Below, one piece after another: positions 1,860-7,440 of a DNA stretch of 7,778 nt (position 1 is the stretch's first letter; the number at the start of each line of letters is the position of its first letter). The notes below the pieces were generated by a model. That model was not told the DNA's origin. It saw nothing but the letters and a program-made list of their open reading frames with translations, and searched no databases. This DNA is from Acidimicrobiaceae bacterium (lineage in GTDB: Bacteria; Actinomycetota; Acidimicrobiia; Acidimicrobiales; RAAP-2): positions 1 through 7,778 of the forward strand of contig PLSY01000273.1 in the NCBI GenBank assembly GCA_003164275.1. Reading direction: 5' to 3'. The translations under genes were made by a program, and so were the position numbers.

Positions 1860-2417
1860 TCAAAGACTGGATGAGTCGTTCGGGTCGACTAGGGATGGGG
1901 TGCGGGAGGCAAGCGCGGGGACCGTCTGGAGAAACCATTCACTTACGACGATCGCGGGGCCGCTTCCCAGTGTGATGCGGTAGCGCCGAGAAAGCGCTGC
2001 CCTATCGAGGAGGTCGATGATCCTCGGGGTATTGCCGGTCGCAACTACAGGCCCAGCGAGTGGTTCCCGGCGGACCTCAAGATGGTGCTTCGTGAGCACG
2101 CGGCCGATTGGGTCCCGACTCGATTCGAGACGCCGTCGAGCGGATGCAGGGAGTCGCTCCACTGCGATCTCGGACTCGGCGTAGACAAACCTCCGGCCCG
2201 AGATTCGCCCAGTGAGCAGTACGGTTCGACGAACCAGTTCGGCTTCGGATTCGAGTTGGAGCAAGTTGTCGCTGCCGGCGGGCCCGGTATTCTGCGAGAG
2301 GATGTCCGCGTCGATCGGCTCCCCTGCAAGGTGTTCCAGAAATTCGGTAACCGTCCCCTTGGCCCGTTGCAGAGCGTTCAAGAGTTCGGCAGCCGCCGGC
2401 GGAGGGACCCCGGTCAT
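1860..2417 (-). CDS. Chorismate pyruvate-lyase family protein (DUF98/PF01947-like), probable 4-hydroxybenzoate synthase
   Basis: The 185-aa product resembles the Rv2949c family, which cleaves chorismate to pyruvate and 4-hydroxybenzoate in the cytosol. An N-terminal helical region is followed by RRTVLLTGR and FVYAESEIAVERLP (residues ~62-90), DPIGRVL (102-108), LSRRYRI (142-148) and the near-terminal SEWF (159-162), in the order usual for the family. The Arg and Glu residues in these blocks are candidates for chorismate binding and catalysis. The frame extends upstream to GTG 2534, but those 39 residues are atypical and ATG 2417 gives the usual family length. The ribosome site at 2417 is weak (CTGAGACC), so the start is moderately certain. 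The last ~20 residues (Ser/Asp-rich) look like a disordered tail. It lies on the same strand as the UbiA-like and methyltransferase genes, 353 bases downstream. Confidence 0.75.
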   Translation of the reverse strand: MTGVPPPAAAELLNALQRAKGTVTEFLEHLAGEPIDADILSQNTGPAGSDNLLQLESEAELVRRTVLLTGRISGRRFVYAESEIAVERLPASARRRLESSRDPIGRVLTKHHLEVRREPLAGPVVATGNTPRIIDLLDRAALSRRYRITLGSGPAIVVSEWFLQTVPALASRTPSLVDPNDSSSL

Positions 2418-2585
2418 GGTCTCAGGTGCAGCACTGGCGGAGCATCCATCGACACAGGCTGACCGTACTCCGGCATTCCCGAGTGGCCTGGTCGCGCCGT
2501 TGGGAGCTGGCACTGAGTGCGTCCCTTGCAGCACAGGGCTCGGGATGCTTGCAAGTTCTCCACATCGGCAACCGCCGGCGGAGGC
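2387..2585. repeat. Near-identical 20-mers CGGCA(G/A)CCGCCGGCGGAGG(G/C), direct, about 180 bases apart
   Basis: Copies at 2387-2406 and 2566-2585 differ at 2 of 20 positions. The first encodes the Pro/Ala-rich N terminus of the chorismate lyase; the second is in the upstream gap. Each has a self-complementary CCGCCGGCGG core. This may be chance in GC-rich DNA or a small duplication. Confidence 0.4.
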
Positions 2586-2770
2586 TTGGTTTCGGACGCC
2601 CGGCTCCGGTTACTTCTTGAAGGTGGAACCACGGCTGAGATGGCGTGGACGCTCGAGGTTCTCCTACCCGGGCTGTGGCTCGCCAGCCGGACTGGCAGTC
2701 CCCAGTGGTGGGGGCATGACCGTATTGTCGAGATAGCGATCCCCGGGTTCCGTCGGCGCCTTGAGAGCTG
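2418..2770. other. 353-base gap inside the biosynthetic cluster, no convincing gene
   Basis: The frames here have atypical composition (rich in Arg, Ser, Pro) and no recognisable motif, so I call no gene. The gap separates the chorismate lyase start from the UbiA-like stop, so the lyase may have its own promoter or a long leader. Two hairpins that exclude each other are visible: GCCAG/CTGGC (2682-2696) and GGACT/AGTCC (2689-2701). No known riboswitch core was matched. Confidence 0.35.
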
Positions 2771-3523
2771 CTAGTGCAGCCGGTCGATGGCGATGGCTGC
2801 TGCAAGGAGTACGACGGCCCACGACATCGCTCGCAGCGCCTGCTCTAACGGAGCCAGCAGCGCTGCCCGATCGACGGGGATGGCTCCGCCGTCAGTCAGT
2901 GTGATGGCTCCTTTCACGTCAGCAGCCTGGCGGCGTAGCAGTCGAGCCGGCCTGCTCAGCGCCCGCTGCGCTGCGGACAGCGCCGCGGCACCGACGGCGG
3001 CAATCAGCGGGGCAACGGCCAATCTCCCGGTCTGGGCAACGTAGGCGGTCAGTACCGGAAAGGCGCCCCAACTTGCGGCGAACCCGACGTCGTTGTGGAT
3101 CACTCCGCCAAACAGCTCAAAGTTATAGGCAACGACAAGTAGCGGTCCGACGACGAGGAAGGGAACCAGCGCCCAGCCGATCTGGGCGATCCCGACGACT
3201 CCGAGGGTAACGGAGCCGGCAAGCCCGGCGCCGGCAACGACGACCAGGGCGACCGATGGAATTCGGGTGCGCAGCGGTCGCCCGTGCAACTCGTCGAGAG
3301 CGTGAGCCGCCAGGCCGACCGCGAAGAAGAACGCCAACAGGGTGGCAATCAGCCGGGTGGCGTTGACCGCCGGCGCCAGGCATGCGCCGATGACGACGTA
3401 GGCAAGGTGCCATGCGGTGTAAGGCGGGTGGAGTAACGTCCACCAGTCACGCCAGCCGCCCGGACGGGCTGCGTAGTAGGCGGCGCGCTGATCGGGCGGT
3501 GGATCTACTGGCGTCTCACCCAC
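2771..3523 (-). CDS. UbiA-like polytopic membrane protein, putative prenyltransferase
   Basis: The 250-aa product is strongly hydrophobic with about seven or eight membrane segments. It opens with a UbiA-like lead-in (WWTLLHPPYTAWHLAYVVIG, residues 27-46). A loop HALDELHGRPLRTRIP (74-89) sits where UbiA enzymes carry their first Asp-rich motif, and it keeps the basic R-T-R found after that motif. Later blocks are YNFELFGGVIHND (133-145) and WGAFPVLTAY (152-161). Canonical UbiA proteins join a polyprenyl diphosphate to an aromatic ring using NDxxDxxxD and DxxxD motifs; both are absent or strongly changed here, so activity is not assured. GTG 3523 overlaps the methyltransferase stop by 8 bases, which implies translational coupling. 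Alternatives are another membrane enzyme of the UbiA superfamily or an inactive relative. Confidence 0.6.
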   Translation of the reverse strand: MGETPVDPPPDQRAAYYAARPGGWRDWWTLLHPPYTAWHLAYVVIGACLAPAVNATRLIATLLAFFFAVGLAAHALDELHGRPLRTRIPSVALVVVAGAGLAGSVTLGVVGIAQIGWALVPFLVVGPLLVVAYNFELFGGVIHNDVGFAASWGAFPVLTAYVAQTGRLAVAPLIAAVGAAALSAAQRALSRPARLLRRQAADVKGAITLTDGGAIPVDRAALLAPLEQALRAMSWAVVLLAAAIAIDRLH

Positions 3524-4250
3524 CCGCGCGCCGACCCCACATGATCAATCCGCCACCGAGGCTCATGCGCCGCACACCGACATCGACGAAGCCCGCTCGC
3601 CGCCATGCCTCGATCGTCCAGTCCACCGAATAACGCCGGTAGTGGGCCGAGATGTTGGGACCGAGAAACCTGCCGACGTCGAACCACGCTTTCCCGCCGG
3701 AAAGCCAGCCGCCAGCGGGAAGCAGGAGTCGCGTATAACCCCACCACCAGAACCTCCAGAACCGGCTCTGCGGTAGGAGGAACTCGAGGCTGGCGACTGC
3801 CCCTCCGGGCTTCACGAGCCGTGCGAGCTCGATCAGAGTGGCTTGGGGGTCGTCAACGTAGCGCAGCAGGTAGGTGAAGGTCAGCGCATCGAAGGTCTCG
3901 TCGGCGAAGGGTGTTTGCTCGGCCCGTCCAGCCACCAGCTGGACCTGGTCGGTCATGCCCCGTTCAGCTACATTGCGCTGGCCTTGGCGCAGCATGTCGA
4001 GCGTCAGGTCGACCCCCACCACCCGGGCACTCGTGCGATCGGCGAGCTGGAGCGCCACGCCGGCCGGCCCGGAGGCGACGTCAAGGATCAGCTCGGGCTG
4101 GCATGGGACTATGTGGTCGACCATGGCTCGACGCCAGCGCCCGTTCTGTCCCATCGACAGCAGTTCGGCGAGGCGGTCGTATCGTCCGGGAAGTGGCGCG
4201 AAGAGCTTCTGGGCGAACCGGTTGGTGTCCTCTTCCACAGGAATACCCAC
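3516..4250 (-). CDS. Class I SAM-dependent methyltransferase, UbiE/MenG-like
   Basis: The 244-aa product has SAM-binding motif I LDVASGPAG (56-64), an acidic residue after strand 2 (GVDLTLDML, D81), AEQTPFADETFD (110-121), FTYLLRYVDDP (125-135) and LVKPGG (145-150). This is the order in the UbiE/MenG enzymes that C-methylate prenylated quinone precursors at the membrane. The N terminus (NRFAQKLFAPLPGRYDRLAE, 10-29) also fits UbiE. An unusual aromatic insert, FWRFWWWGYTRLLLPAGGW (164-182), may contact the membrane or a lipid substrate. GTG 4250 has a strong SD, AAGGAGG (4261-4255), 4 bases upstream. The gene overlaps the UbiA-like gene by 8 bases and faces the reductase gene across 58 bases. 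A simple MenG is possible, but the neighbours favour a dedicated prenyl-aromatic methylation. Confidence 0.85.
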   Translation of the reverse strand: MGIPVEEDTNRFAQKLFAPLPGRYDRLAELLSMGQNGRWRRAMVDHIVPCQPELILDVASGPAGVALQLADRTSARVVGVDLTLDMLRQGQRNVAERGMTDQVQLVAGRAEQTPFADETFDALTFTYLLRYVDDPQATLIELARLVKPGGAVASLEFLLPQSRFWRFWWWGYTRLLLPAGGWLSGGKAWFDVGRFLGPNISAHYRRYSVDWTIEAWRRAGFVDVGVRRMSLGGGLIMWGRRAGG

Positions 4251-4308
4251 GACGCCTCCTTAGGTGTGAAGATCTCACTGTAAGCGGTCGGGGGTCGAAA
4301 GGAGTCGT
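4251..4308. promoter_or_regulatory. Divergent promoter region with a GTGA-N5-TCAC dyad
   Basis: This 58-base spacer holds back-to-back SD sites: AAGGAGG for the methyltransferase on the minus strand and AAAGGAG (4298-4304) for the reductase on the plus strand. A dyad GTGA-AGATC-TCAC lies at 4266-4278. Beside it are overlapping weak -10-like hexamers, TGTAAG on plus (4279-4284) and TACAGT on minus (4283-4278). A shared operator controlling both directions is plausible, but no convincing -35 elements were found. Confidence 0.35.
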
Positions 4309-5589
4309 GTGAGTCGCAGGCATTTTGATGTGCTTGTCGTCGGAGCCGGTCCGGCAGGAAGCATTGCCGCTCTGGTGCTGGCGCGTGCCGGGGCCAGCGT
4401 GGCGCTGCTCGACAAGACACAATTTCCGAGGGACAAGGCCTGCGGCGACTTCATCGGCCCGCGGGGCCTCCAAGTCCTCACCGATCTCGGAATACCGGAA
4501 CCGCCCGGGCTCAACGTCGGGGACATGGTGGTCGTTGGTCCCACCGGACGACGGGTCGTCCTTCCGTGCTTCAACGGGGTCACCTACCCGGGTCGTGCGC
4601 GGGCCATGACCCGGTCCGTGTTCGACGACGCCCTGCGCACCGCCGCGCTTGACGCAGGCGCAATTGCCTACGCCGGGCGGGCCGATCGCCCGCTCCGGTC
4701 GGGAGGTGACATCGAAGGCTTCACCGTGAGCGACGGCGACGGCGCAGAGCTGCGAGCCGACTTCGTCATCGGGGCTGATGGCGCCACCAGCCACGTGGCG
4801 CACAGCGCCGGCCTGGTCGAGGGGTCGCGGGTGCTCTGGGGGTTTGCGGTGCGCTGCTACATGGACCAGCACGTCGACCTCCCGGCGATCACGCTGTGGG
4901 AACCGACCCGGTGGCATGCATTCCCCGGTTACGGCTGGATCTTCCCAAGCCCAGGGGGAGTCGCCAATATCGGCGTTGGTATAGGAACGCTGGCGGATCG
5001 TCAGCTCGGCGCGGCGGCGGTGCGGGTGCTCCCCGCCTATCTCGACCACCTGGTCGAACTCGGACTCGTCGACCGGGCGGCCGTCTCGCCGCTGCCGCGT
5101 CGATTGGGGGGATGGCTCAAGATGGGCATGGTGGGGACCACGCCCGCCGCTGGCCGTGTGCTGTTGGTGGGCGATGCTGCCGGCCTCGTCAACCCGCTGC
5201 AGGGCGAGGGCATCGCACAGGCGATGACCAGCGGACGATCGGCCGCCGAGGCGGTCCTCAACTCGCCGGGCAATGCAGCGACGCGCTACCGCGACAACTT
5301 GGCCCGAGACCATCTCCCGTACCAGCAGATCACCGCTGCTGGCCACGCCGCGCTGGTCGGTCGCCCGCGGGTCATTGCCGCAGTGGGACGCGTGCTCACG
5401 ACCCCGGGGCTCGGGAGCGCACTCGCCGGGGGCTGGGGCATCTTCTGGAACGAACTACTCGACGGGGCGGCACCGGGAGGCGCGCGAAGTGTCGCTACGG
5501 CGTCGACGTGGCTCGGGCGGGCAGTTACGGCTCGAACCGAGGTCTCCCACTGGTTCTCGTCGACCTTTGACGACCCTCAGCTCCCCTGA
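4309..5589 (+). CDS. Geranylgeranyl reductase family FAD-dependent oxidoreductase
   Basis: The 426-aa product begins with a Rossmann dinucleotide site VVGAGPAGS (10-18). It has the family's FPRDKACGD (39-47), the second FAD motif GADGATS (155-161), a GYGWIFP block (207-213), and the FAD-ribityl motif LVGDAAGLVNPLQGEGIAQA (286-305). These define the GGR/ChlP-like flavoproteins that saturate isoprenoid double bonds in chlorophyll, tocopherol, quinone or archaeal-lipid chains at the membrane surface. Length is normal. GTG 4309 is chosen because AAAGGAG lies 4 bases upstream and the Rossmann fold starts at once. The divergent methyltransferase and UbiA-like neighbours suggest a prenylated aromatic as substrate. 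Other family members halogenate or hydroxylate, so chain reduction is the leading guess rather than certain. Confidence 0.88.
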   Translation: MSRRHFDVLVVGAGPAGSIAALVLARAGASVALLDKTQFPRDKACGDFIGPRGLQVLTDLGIPEPPGLNVGDMVVVGPTGRRVVLPCFNGVTYPGRARAMTRSVFDDALRTAALDAGAIAYAGRADRPLRSGGDIEGFTVSDGDGAELRADFVIGADGATSHVAHSAGLVEGSRVLWGFAVRCYMDQHVDLPAITLWEPTRWHAFPGYGWIFPSPGGVANIGVGIGTLADRQLGAAAVRVLPAYLDHLVELGLVDRAAVSPLPRRLGGWLKMGMVGTTPAAGRVLLVGDAAGLVNPLQGEGIAQAMTSGRSAAEAVLNSPGNAATRYRDNLARDHLPYQQITAAGHAALVGRPRVIAAVGRVLTTPGLGSALAGGWGIFWNELLDGAAPGGARSVATASTWLGRAVTARTEVSHWFSSTFDDPQLP

Positions 5590-6668
5590 CCCGCGGAGGG
5601 GGCTAGGCGCGGGTCGATGTAGTCCAACCTGGCTTCTGAGTCACATCCTTGGTTGGATAACACCGTCGTGGCACAGGAAGCGAGTGTTTCGCTCCCGTAG
5701 TCATGGTTCCCGAGGACGCTTTCACCAAACGCCGGTGCCACCGACCCGTGGCCGAGCGCACGTGCCACCGGGCGCTGATCCGACCTGCTGCCTGTCCCAC
5801 GATGCAGAACGTGATCCGCCCAGGCCGCCTGAACCACTTCGAAGGCCGCCTGGCAGCACGGGTCGAATCCCCACGATTCTTCCACCGCCGCCTGCCAGCG
5901 TTCCCTTGCGCGAACACTTGGGGGTTCCCAATCCTCACCGCGCAATCCGAACCACCCGCCTCGCCGTTCAAGTCCCACCCGCTCGAGCAACTCTCCGATC
6001 GGGGCGACCGGCGAACGGAACAGCGTCGGATCGTGACAGAGTGCGTCCCTTACCAGCACTTCGGCCTCCACGCCGACATCTTCGGAGTTCCGAACACCGA
6101 AGGCGGCGCGCAGAGCAACTTCTTCTTCCTCGCCTCGCCCCAGAGTAGGACTCACCTCCAGCGACACCGTCCGACCCTTTCGCCGGATGCAGACGACGTC
6201 GCCTGCTCGTGCGGAGGAGAGCCAGCCGGCTGGGCCGACAAGAGAGCCGTTCTCGTCGAGTCCTGGCTCATCGTGGAACGCGAAACTGCATTTCAGAGTG
6301 CCTCCAGCAGACAACTCCAGGCCAAGATCCGAATCGAAGTCGATTGCGCCCAGGTCCGGCTTGGCATCAAGCACCTCTCGTTCGAGCTCGGATTCGGTGA
6401 TTCGGTGGCTCAACACAGCGCCGCCTAGCATCGCGGTGGTCAGCGCCACGATCCCGTCTTCGCTCATCCAGGTGTCGTCGGTGTAGAGGAGGATCTCGTC
6501 AAGCAACTCTGCGAGCGCGTCATCGCCCAAACCCTCAGCGGGGCGGCTGTCGCCGGTTCGCACACCGTCCCGATCGATGACGAGTAGGTGCAAGTCACGG
6601 ACCCGAGTGGACCTTGGGGGACACAATACGAACCGGTCGAGCAACGTCTGCGGGCTCGCCTTCGGCAT
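5577..6668 (-). CDS. Hypothetical acidic 363-aa protein, possibly C-terminally truncated
   Basis: The frame has good protein character throughout: a leader SPQTLLDRFVLCPPRSTRVR, then DALAELLDEILLYTDDTWMS (50-69), a beta-rich middle (LKCSFAFHDEPGLDENGSLV, GDVVCIRRKGRTVSLEVSP), then helical blocks (DALCHDPTLFRSPVAPIGEL, GEDWEPPS, WGFDPCCQAAFEVVQAAW, AFGESVLG). No signal peptide or membrane segment is seen. I cannot name a family with confidence. From memory it resembles longer actinobacterial proteins that continue into TPR-like helices and a C-terminal SEC-C Cys cluster, both absent here. The end (DPRLAPSAGQGS) runs 13 bases into the convergent reductase gene and through the hairpin, as expected of a shortened reading frame. 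ATG 6668 has no clear SD. A strong SD with GTG at 6708 lies upstream but out of frame. Confidence 0.6.
   Translation of the reverse strand: MPKASPQTLLDRFVLCPPRSTRVRDLHLLVIDRDGVRTGDSRPAEGLGDDALAELLDEILLYTDDTWMSEDGIVALTTAMLGGAVLSHRITESELEREVLDAKPDLGAIDFDSDLGLELSAGGTLKCSFAFHDEPGLDENGSLVGPAGWLSSARAGDVVCIRRKGRTVSLEVSPTLGRGEEEEVALRAAFGVRNSEDVGVEAEVLVRDALCHDPTLFRSPVAPIGELLERVGLERRGGWFGLRGEDWEPPSVRARERWQAAVEESWGFDPCCQAAFEVVQAAWADHVLHRGTGSRSDQRPVARALGHGSVAPAFGESVLGNHDYGSETLASCATTVLSNQGCDSEARLDYIDPRLAPSAGQGS
5588..5615. terminator. Hairpin at the convergent gene ends (GACCCGCG / CGCGGGTC)
   Basis: A perfect 8-bp GC-rich stem (5588-5595 with 5608-5615) encloses a 12-base loop and starts at the stop codon of the reductase gene. 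No T-run follows in either direction, so it would be a U-tail-less terminator of the kind proposed in actinobacteria. It lies inside the last codons of the minus-strand 363-aa gene. Confidence 0.45.
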
Positions 6669-6717: not shown

Positions 6718-6822
6718 CTATCGGTCGTAGACCTCTCGGCGATGTCCGAGTGCCACCACGATCAAGAGCACGTCATCTGCCATGGCGTAGATGTTCCGGC
6801 AGTCGCCACCCACCAAATACGG
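6718..6822 (-). pseudogene. 3' remnant of a RelE/ParE-superfamily toxin gene
   Basis: The last ~34 codons of a minus-strand frame read LPYLVGGDCRNIYAMADDV then LLIVVALGHRREVYDR and stop at TAG 6720-6718. This matches the C-terminal end of RelE-type mRNA interferases (V-G-D-x-R-x-I-Y, D-D, V-L-L, G-H-R-R-E-V-Y), which cut mRNA at the ribosome. Upstream of about 6822 the frame loses all similarity and lies antisense to the beta-propeller gene, so the N-terminal half and any antitoxin are missing. It is a dead fragment that marks a rearrangement junction. Its stop codon overlaps the TAGGAGG ribosome site before GTG 6708. Confidence 0.6.
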
Positions 6823-6834
6823 CAGGTTCAGATG

Positions 6835-7440
6835 GTCGGGGCAGAGACCGGCTCGCCGACGGTCGACCCGGTGGCCGGCGTGGTCGTCGTGGGTGACTCG
6901 AGTGGCGCCATCAGCGCGCTCCACCTGGCCGACGGGTCGCCGGACTGGTCGGTCGCCACGGGTGGCGCGGTCACCGCGACACCGACCACCGTGAACGGCC
7001 TCGTCTACGTGGGGTCGCAGACCGGCGAGGTCTACGCCTTCCGCGAGGCCACCGGTGCACTTGCGTGGAGCTACGCCACCGGGGACGCCGTGTCGGTGGC
7101 CGGTGCCTACTGGACGTCCAGCGGCGACGGTCCCCCGGCCTACGTGGTCGGCAACGCCGACGGCAACCTGGACTTCCTGGCCGTCGCGACCGGACAGCTC
7201 GACCGCCAGATCAACCAGGGGGACCCGCCGGTGACGGAGGTTGCGTGCGCCGACGACTGGGCCGTGGCCAGCGTGGCGAATGGGCTCGTCTTCAGCGACA
7301 AGTTCGGCGGTGAGATCACCTGGGCCTACTAGGGGACGGCGCAGTCGTCACCGGTCACCCTCCAGGACGGGGTGTCGTACCTGGCCGGCCAGGACGGAGC
7401 CGTACGGGCCTTCACCGTCCCCGGAACCCAGATCCCGTAA
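6835..7440 (+). pseudogene. PQQ/quinoprotein-type beta-propeller gene fragment, headless and interrupted by an in-frame TAG
   Basis: The frame encodes propeller blades with the pattern G-x-V-Y-V-G-x-x-x-G-x-x-Y-A-x-[ED]-x-x-T-G-x-x-x-W: VVVVGDSSGAISALHLADGS, then LVYVGSQTGEVYAFREATGA, then a degenerate third (VVGNADGNLDFLAVATGQLD). After TAG at 7330-7332 the same frame continues as another blade (SSPVTLQDGVSYLAGQDGAV) and ends at TAA 7438-7440. The 5' end is missing: similarity begins near 6835, right where the RelE remnant begins on the other strand, and the codons before it read antisense RelE. Full proteins of this type have several more blades and often a signal peptide or kinase/protease head. 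A CAG-to-TAG change would explain the stop. Confidence 0.65.

Follow-up and report, generated by a model that had tools for sequence, protein, structure and literature searches.

A gene for a UbiE-family methyltransferase stands directly upstream of a gene for a divergent UbiA-fold membrane protein, on the same strand, in all 118 distinct loci with enough flanking sequence. We describe this pair from a contig of an Acidimicrobiaceae bacterium (PLSY01000273.1, assembly GCA_003164275.1); the whole stretch of 7,778 nucleotides analyzed is called the window. Sequence comparisons support the view that the two genes, joined in part of the lineages by a gene for a geranylgeranyl-reductase-family enzyme (GGR), make up a conserved module that is separate from the menaquinone genes of the hosts tested. 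We give about even chances to the reading that the window carries a module for modifying membrane isoprenoid lipids, the core of which would be the C-methyltransferase and the seven-helix UbiA-fold protein, translationally coupled. No description of the pair, or of a UbiE/UbiA/GGR actinobacterial module, was recognized in searches of openly available literature.

Gene content of the window

The first gene of the pair (3516..4250, minus strand) encodes a 244-amino-acid SAM-dependent methyltransferase of the UbiE family, and the second (2771..3523, minus strand) encodes a 250-amino-acid integral membrane protein with a predicted UbiA fold, referred to here as UbiA-like; the two genes overlap by 8 bp. 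Divergent from the pair lies the gene for the GGR, an FAD enzyme of 426 amino acids (4309..5589, plus strand). A DUF98/Rv2949c-like chorismate lyase gene (1860..2534, minus strand; PF01947) is separated from the UbiA-like gene by the C-terminal remnant of a START/SRPBCC (Polyketide_cyc2) gene (approximately 2562..2774, plus strand).

An earlier note on this DNA had read the lyase, UbiA-like, methyltransferase, and GGR genes as consecutive steps of one dedicated pathway. All four ORFs are where it placed them, but it overlooked the truncated SRPBCC gene, and because the GGR gene is transcribed divergently, the four genes do not form a single operon. Its domain calls stand for the lyase, the methyltransferase, and the GGR, which pass the cut-offs of PF01947, PF01209, and TIGR02032, respectively; the UbiA-like protein passes no family cut-off and is assigned chiefly by its fold.

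The remainder of the window holds a winged-helix Trans_reg_C protein with no further Pfam domain (PF00486; 1305-1706, plus strand) and a 363-amino-acid ORF that overlaps the end of the GGR gene and has no Pfam or NCBIfam match (5577-6668, minus strand). A PQQ/BamB-like beta-propeller frame (6742-7440, plus strand) has an in-frame TAG near 7330, after which the open frame continues to 7440; from its sequence, it appears to be a pseudogene or to contain a sequencing error. Scans of the window for Rfam families and tRNAs gave no matches, and neither did a plasmid search.

The methyltransferase and UbiA-like genes form a conserved pair

A scan of genome contigs supplied the best 80 of 130 loci, and later searches brought the total to 122 distinct loci, a sample skewed towards relatives of the window. 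The pair genes overlap in 62 of 76 loci, with start codons chosen by script, and the median gap is -8 bp. Two companions recur beside them: a GGR gene, divergently adjacent and upstream of the pair (32 of 117 loci), and a START/SRPBCC gene, convergent and downstream of the UbiA-like gene (26 of 120 loci). These companions occur together at a locus more often than expected (20/12/6/77; Fisher 2e-9, kinship ignored). Besides UbiE, GGR, and SRPBCC, no neighbor cluster was found in more than 8 of the 80 loci. The four-gene neighborhood named in the earlier note is thus conserved in its pair and partly in its GGR but not in its lyase, which is found at 3 of 122 loci.

One genome carries a second copy of the pair (locus L044, G014:C38), in which the UbiA-like gene has an in-frame TGA. 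A GGR gene, an SRPBCC gene, and a partial lyase match lie nearby in altered order.

The UbiA-like gene was detected in 37 of 296 genomes of the phylum of host G002, a count that includes G002 itself and two fragments, and in 9 of 151 genomes of the phylum of host G020, seven of them strong matches and G020 included. The 29 genomes listed from the draw of 151 were all new to our sample. One locus (L062) is labeled Chloroflexi, and the UbiA-like gene would therefore probably occur in a second phylum.

The methyltransferase belongs to the UbiE family and is separate from host MenG

The methyltransferase matches PF01209 at 109.4 bits (2.3e-31; cut-off 20.1) and carries the SAM-binding residues of the UbiE/MenG family, whose enzymes are known for acting on quinol rings. 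Among 34 aligned sequences, D57 and G61 are invariant and D81 is conserved at 90% or more; we take these to be SAM-site residues. Within the family, the protein reaches no cut-off among the 25 NCBIfam models listed as matches, the best being MpqE (121 bits, 3.9e-35; cut-off 335). On the MenG model (TIGR01934), it scores 119.7 bits against a cut-off of 158.35, which all four host MenG proteins tested pass. A tree places 34 methyltransferases of the pair and 6 host MenG proteins in separate clades with 100/100 support, and identity between the two groups is 26 to 40%.

All 25 host genomes, which we selected from the 80 loci, encode PF01040 proteins above the cut-off at other places, and each has at least 7 PF01209 matches, many of them to generic methyltransferases. 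In four hosts (G002, G009, G011, and G020), curated cut-offs were passed by 4 of 4 MenG, 2 of 2 MenA, and 3 of 3 MenD proteins tested, and these menaquinone proteins (MenG, MenA, and/or MenD) are encoded away from the pair. The earlier note had left room for the pair genes to be the only menaquinone enzymes of their genomes. We reject the pair as the sole MenA/MenG of its host, given the separate menaquinone route in the four hosts and the separate clade of its methyltransferase. The strict pairing of this methyltransferase, alongside the menaquinone genes that the same bacteria possess, points to a second prenyl-lipid product.

The membrane protein has a predicted UbiA fold and lacks the helix-6 aspartate motif

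The predicted structure of the UbiA-like protein shows the seven helices of the UbiA fold. At the sequence level, the window protein has no Pfam UbiA match at an E value of up to 1 and no NCBIfam match. Weak PF01040 matches (E values of up to 10 allowed, the best being 1e-5) came from 15 of 64 members of the family; when 10 members were rescanned, 4 matched it at 7.5 to 16.8 bits, against a cut-off of 34.2. We assign the protein to UbiA on the basis of the predicted fold and these weak matches. The relationship is distant, since Foldseek returned no match at an E value of 0.001 or better and hhalign of the family against host MenA gave no signal. Searches of PDB sequences with the family gave only matches that we take to be due to chance.

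Known UbiA enzymes have two Asp-rich DxxxD motifs, the second in helix 6. The second is absent here: among 81 UbiA-like sequences, none has DxxxD at positions 165-205 (helix 6), and 71 have no acidic residue at all within 170-199. In the helix-2 region (55-90), DxxxD occurs in 7 of the 81. Helix 6 is instead Arg-rich where the Asp motif would be, and the family has an invariant His/Asp/Glu cluster and four near-invariant arginines. The earlier note had assigned ring prenylation to this protein. A predicted UbiA fold bears out the family, but the absence of the second Asp motif casts doubt on prenylation.

Among the matches listed, the closest relative of the window protein is 98% identical, and another, at 94%, is from an Acidimicrobiales bacterium. 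Two member queries returned at least 7984 database matches (7999 scored candidates) and at least 7996 (7997). None of the 240 matches listed has a precomputed Pfam domain. This divergent family is left unnamed by the Pfam and NCBIfam scans that we made. The parts of the module are of known kinds.

GGR and SRPBCC genes accompany the pair in some lineages

The GGR belongs to the geranylgeranyl reductase family (TIGR02032, 192.5 bits; cut-off 158.8) and scores 140.6 bits on the MenJ menaquinone reductase model (NF045655), for which the cut-off is 700. Its best PDB match is 3oz2, an archaeal digeranylgeranylglycerophospholipid reductase (1.7e-17). An ortholog (E up to 1e-40, 53 to 82% identity) is present in 12 of the 25 hosts, and in all 12 it lies on the contig of the pair and beside it; in G014, it adjoins the second, broken copy. 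Two weaker paralogs (35 to 39%) are encoded elsewhere in host genomes.

The SRPBCC remnant in the window covers HMM positions 82-152 of 156 (45.7 bits), that is, the C-terminal half only. Its position is internal to the window, adjoining the lyase ORF, which leads us to reject truncation by an assembly end. Relatives, L002 among them, have a complete gene that converges on the UbiA-like gene, and all four whole relatives scanned pass the PF10604 cut-off. The GGR ortholog was not found at 1e-40 in 13 of the 25 hosts, and 94 of 120 loci have no SRPBCC gene adjacent to the pair, so conservation does not extend to a full pathway.

The chorismate lyase is a sporadic neighbor

The lyase is a member of the DUF98/Rv2949c-like family (PF01947, 41.3 bits; cut-off 22), and its residues R64, G70, R144, Y146, and E160 are identical in 10 aligned sequences. 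A solved homolog, 2nwi (4.7e-18), is titled a hypothetical protein. Comparison with relatives suggests that translation probably starts at an ATG near 2417. The enzyme looks intact from its sequence, and it may supply 4-hydroxybenzoate for another use or serve only as an optional feed to the module.

The earlier note had proposed this lyase as the dedicated first step of the pathway, a claim that the survey does not support: the loci show what the note itself had named as refuting it, a lyase not syntenic with the other genes in relatives. A lyase lies near the pair at 3 of 122 distinct loci and in three different places: downstream, as in the window (L002); beyond the GGR gene on the opposite side (L003); and, as no more than a weak partial match, at a distance of 7.6 kb near the locus end (L044), in a genome (G014) in which no PF01947 protein was found. 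The proportion is 3 of 62 among loci with room for a lyase on both sides, and L002 alone has the arrangement of the window among 112 loci with 1.5 kb downstream. PF01947 was found in 7 of the 25 hosts, and E. coli-type UbiC was found in none of them.

Genome counts agree; like all the lyase counts, they rest on incomplete metagenome genomes. In the family of G002 (172 genomes), 100 carry the UbiA-like gene, 13 the window-type lyase, and 12 both; 88 of the 100 thus lack the lyase, and in 2 of the 12 (G002 and G003) the two genes share a contig. These family counts are of the UbiA-like gene alone, its pairing with UbiE being established at the loci; they take in fragments or marginal matches (e.g., G655, G714, and G717) and, for the lyase, two partial matches (G595 and G722). 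The UbiA-like gene is present in 12 of the 13 genomes with a lyase, compared with 100 of all 172, which gives P = 0.007, or 0.016 without partial and marginal hits, kinship ignored in both. In a sample of 298 genomes of the order, the UbiA-like gene occurs in 36, PF01947 in 9, and both in 3 (3/9 against 36/298; P = 0.08, kinship ignored). A mild association of lyase and pair persists. Because of the locus, family, and order counts, we regard the lyase as a sporadic companion at most and reject it as a fixed part of the module.

Proposed mechanism and alternative readings

A route that modifies membrane isoprenoids is consistent with these partners: a methyltransferase of a quinol-ring family coupled to a UbiA-fold protein, with a prenyl reductase and a lipid-binding START protein added in some lineages. 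Most likely, the conserved His/Asp/Glu and Arg residues of the UbiA-fold protein hold a substrate with a polyprenyl tail; the protein would either join ring and tail at a site that differs from the one in ordinary UbiA enzymes or present the lipid to the methyltransferase. The methyltransferase would then methylate the activated ring, and in lineages that have the dedicated GGR and the START-type lipid-binding protein, including that of the window, the GGR would saturate double bonds of the tail. A more specific version is tentative, and we hold it somewhat unlikely: the UbiA-fold partner would found a new class of enzymes, acting on a prenyl lipid with its His/Asp/Glu cluster and four arginines rather than with Asp-rich magnesium sites. 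Together with its dedicated UbiE-like methyltransferase (and the GGR in some lineages), it would produce a prenyl lipid or quinone of an undescribed kind, methylated and partly saturated, in Actinomycetota and probably in one or more further phyla.

The module might instead make or tailor a lipid that is not a quinone, such as a derivative of a polyprenyl phosphate, a carotenoid, or an ether lipid. The arginines that replace the Asp motif in helix 6 would be well suited to a phosphate or a carboxylate, and the GGR finds its best PDB match in an archaeal digeranylgeranylglycerophospholipid reductase; the quinol-ring chemistry of UbiE enzymes and the lack of any further recurrent neighbor cluster make this rather improbable. 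Tailoring of menaquinone itself, in which the GGR would partly saturate the tail, the UbiE-like enzyme add a ring methyl, and the UbiA-fold protein assist, is unlikely yet a serious rival, because Acidimicrobiia are reported, in the portion of PMC13386864 consulted, with MK9-H6 and MK9-H8, which imply that several prenyl reductions are needed. Men-route genes are present in the four hosts tested and the GGR does register on the MenJ model, though far below its cut-off; against this, the GGR ortholog is confined to 12 of 25 hosts. Quite improbable is the route of the earlier note, from chorismate through 4-hydroxybenzoate, prenylation, methylation, and saturation to a prenylated phenol or quinone. 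The apparently intact lyase is next to the module in the window and in L002, and on the opposite side in L003, and all but one of the 13 genomes with a lyase have the UbiA-like gene; the rarity of the lyase at loci and in genomes, the lack of UbiC in the hosts, and the missing helix-6 motif in 81 of 81 sequences speak against it. The xiamenmycin cluster, which joins a chorismate lyase to a UbiA-type enzyme (PMC4053376), is a precedent for a 4-hydroxybenzoate origin, for which the present data give little support.

Comparison with known systems

Like the actinobacterial late menaquinone pathway (MenA, MenG/UbiE, and MenJ), the proposed isoprenoid-modifying module unites a UbiA-fold protein, a UbiE-family methyltransferase, and a GGR-family reductase. 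It differs from that pathway in that the four hosts tested hold MenG, MenA, and/or MenD elsewhere, in the separate clade of its methyltransferase, and in a UbiA-like protein without the helix-6 Asp motif. The window lyase shares family PF01947 with Rv2949c of Mycobacterium, which acts in the phenolic glycolipid route, but a Pfam scan of nine window ORFs found no polyketide-synthase gene.

MpqE belongs to the methyl-plastoquinone pathway of Nitrospira; methyl-plastoquinone itself is documented in PMC12324825 and PMC13386864. MpqE is the best NCBIfam match of the window methyltransferase, at 121 bits against a cut-off of 335; the match is generic, because four host MenG proteins score just as well on the MpqE model (119 to 150 bits). 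The xiamenmycin cluster of Streptomyces xiamenensis likewise combines, in an actinobacterium, a lyase gene (XimC) with a UbiA-type gene (XimB, a 4-hydroxybenzoate geranyltransferase) and yields a prenylated 4-hydroxybenzoate (PMC4053376). No UbiE-like gene is among the five xim genes given in that source, and XimB, tested there as a transferase, is 34% identical to E. coli UbiA, whereas the UbiA-like protein of the window is much more divergent.
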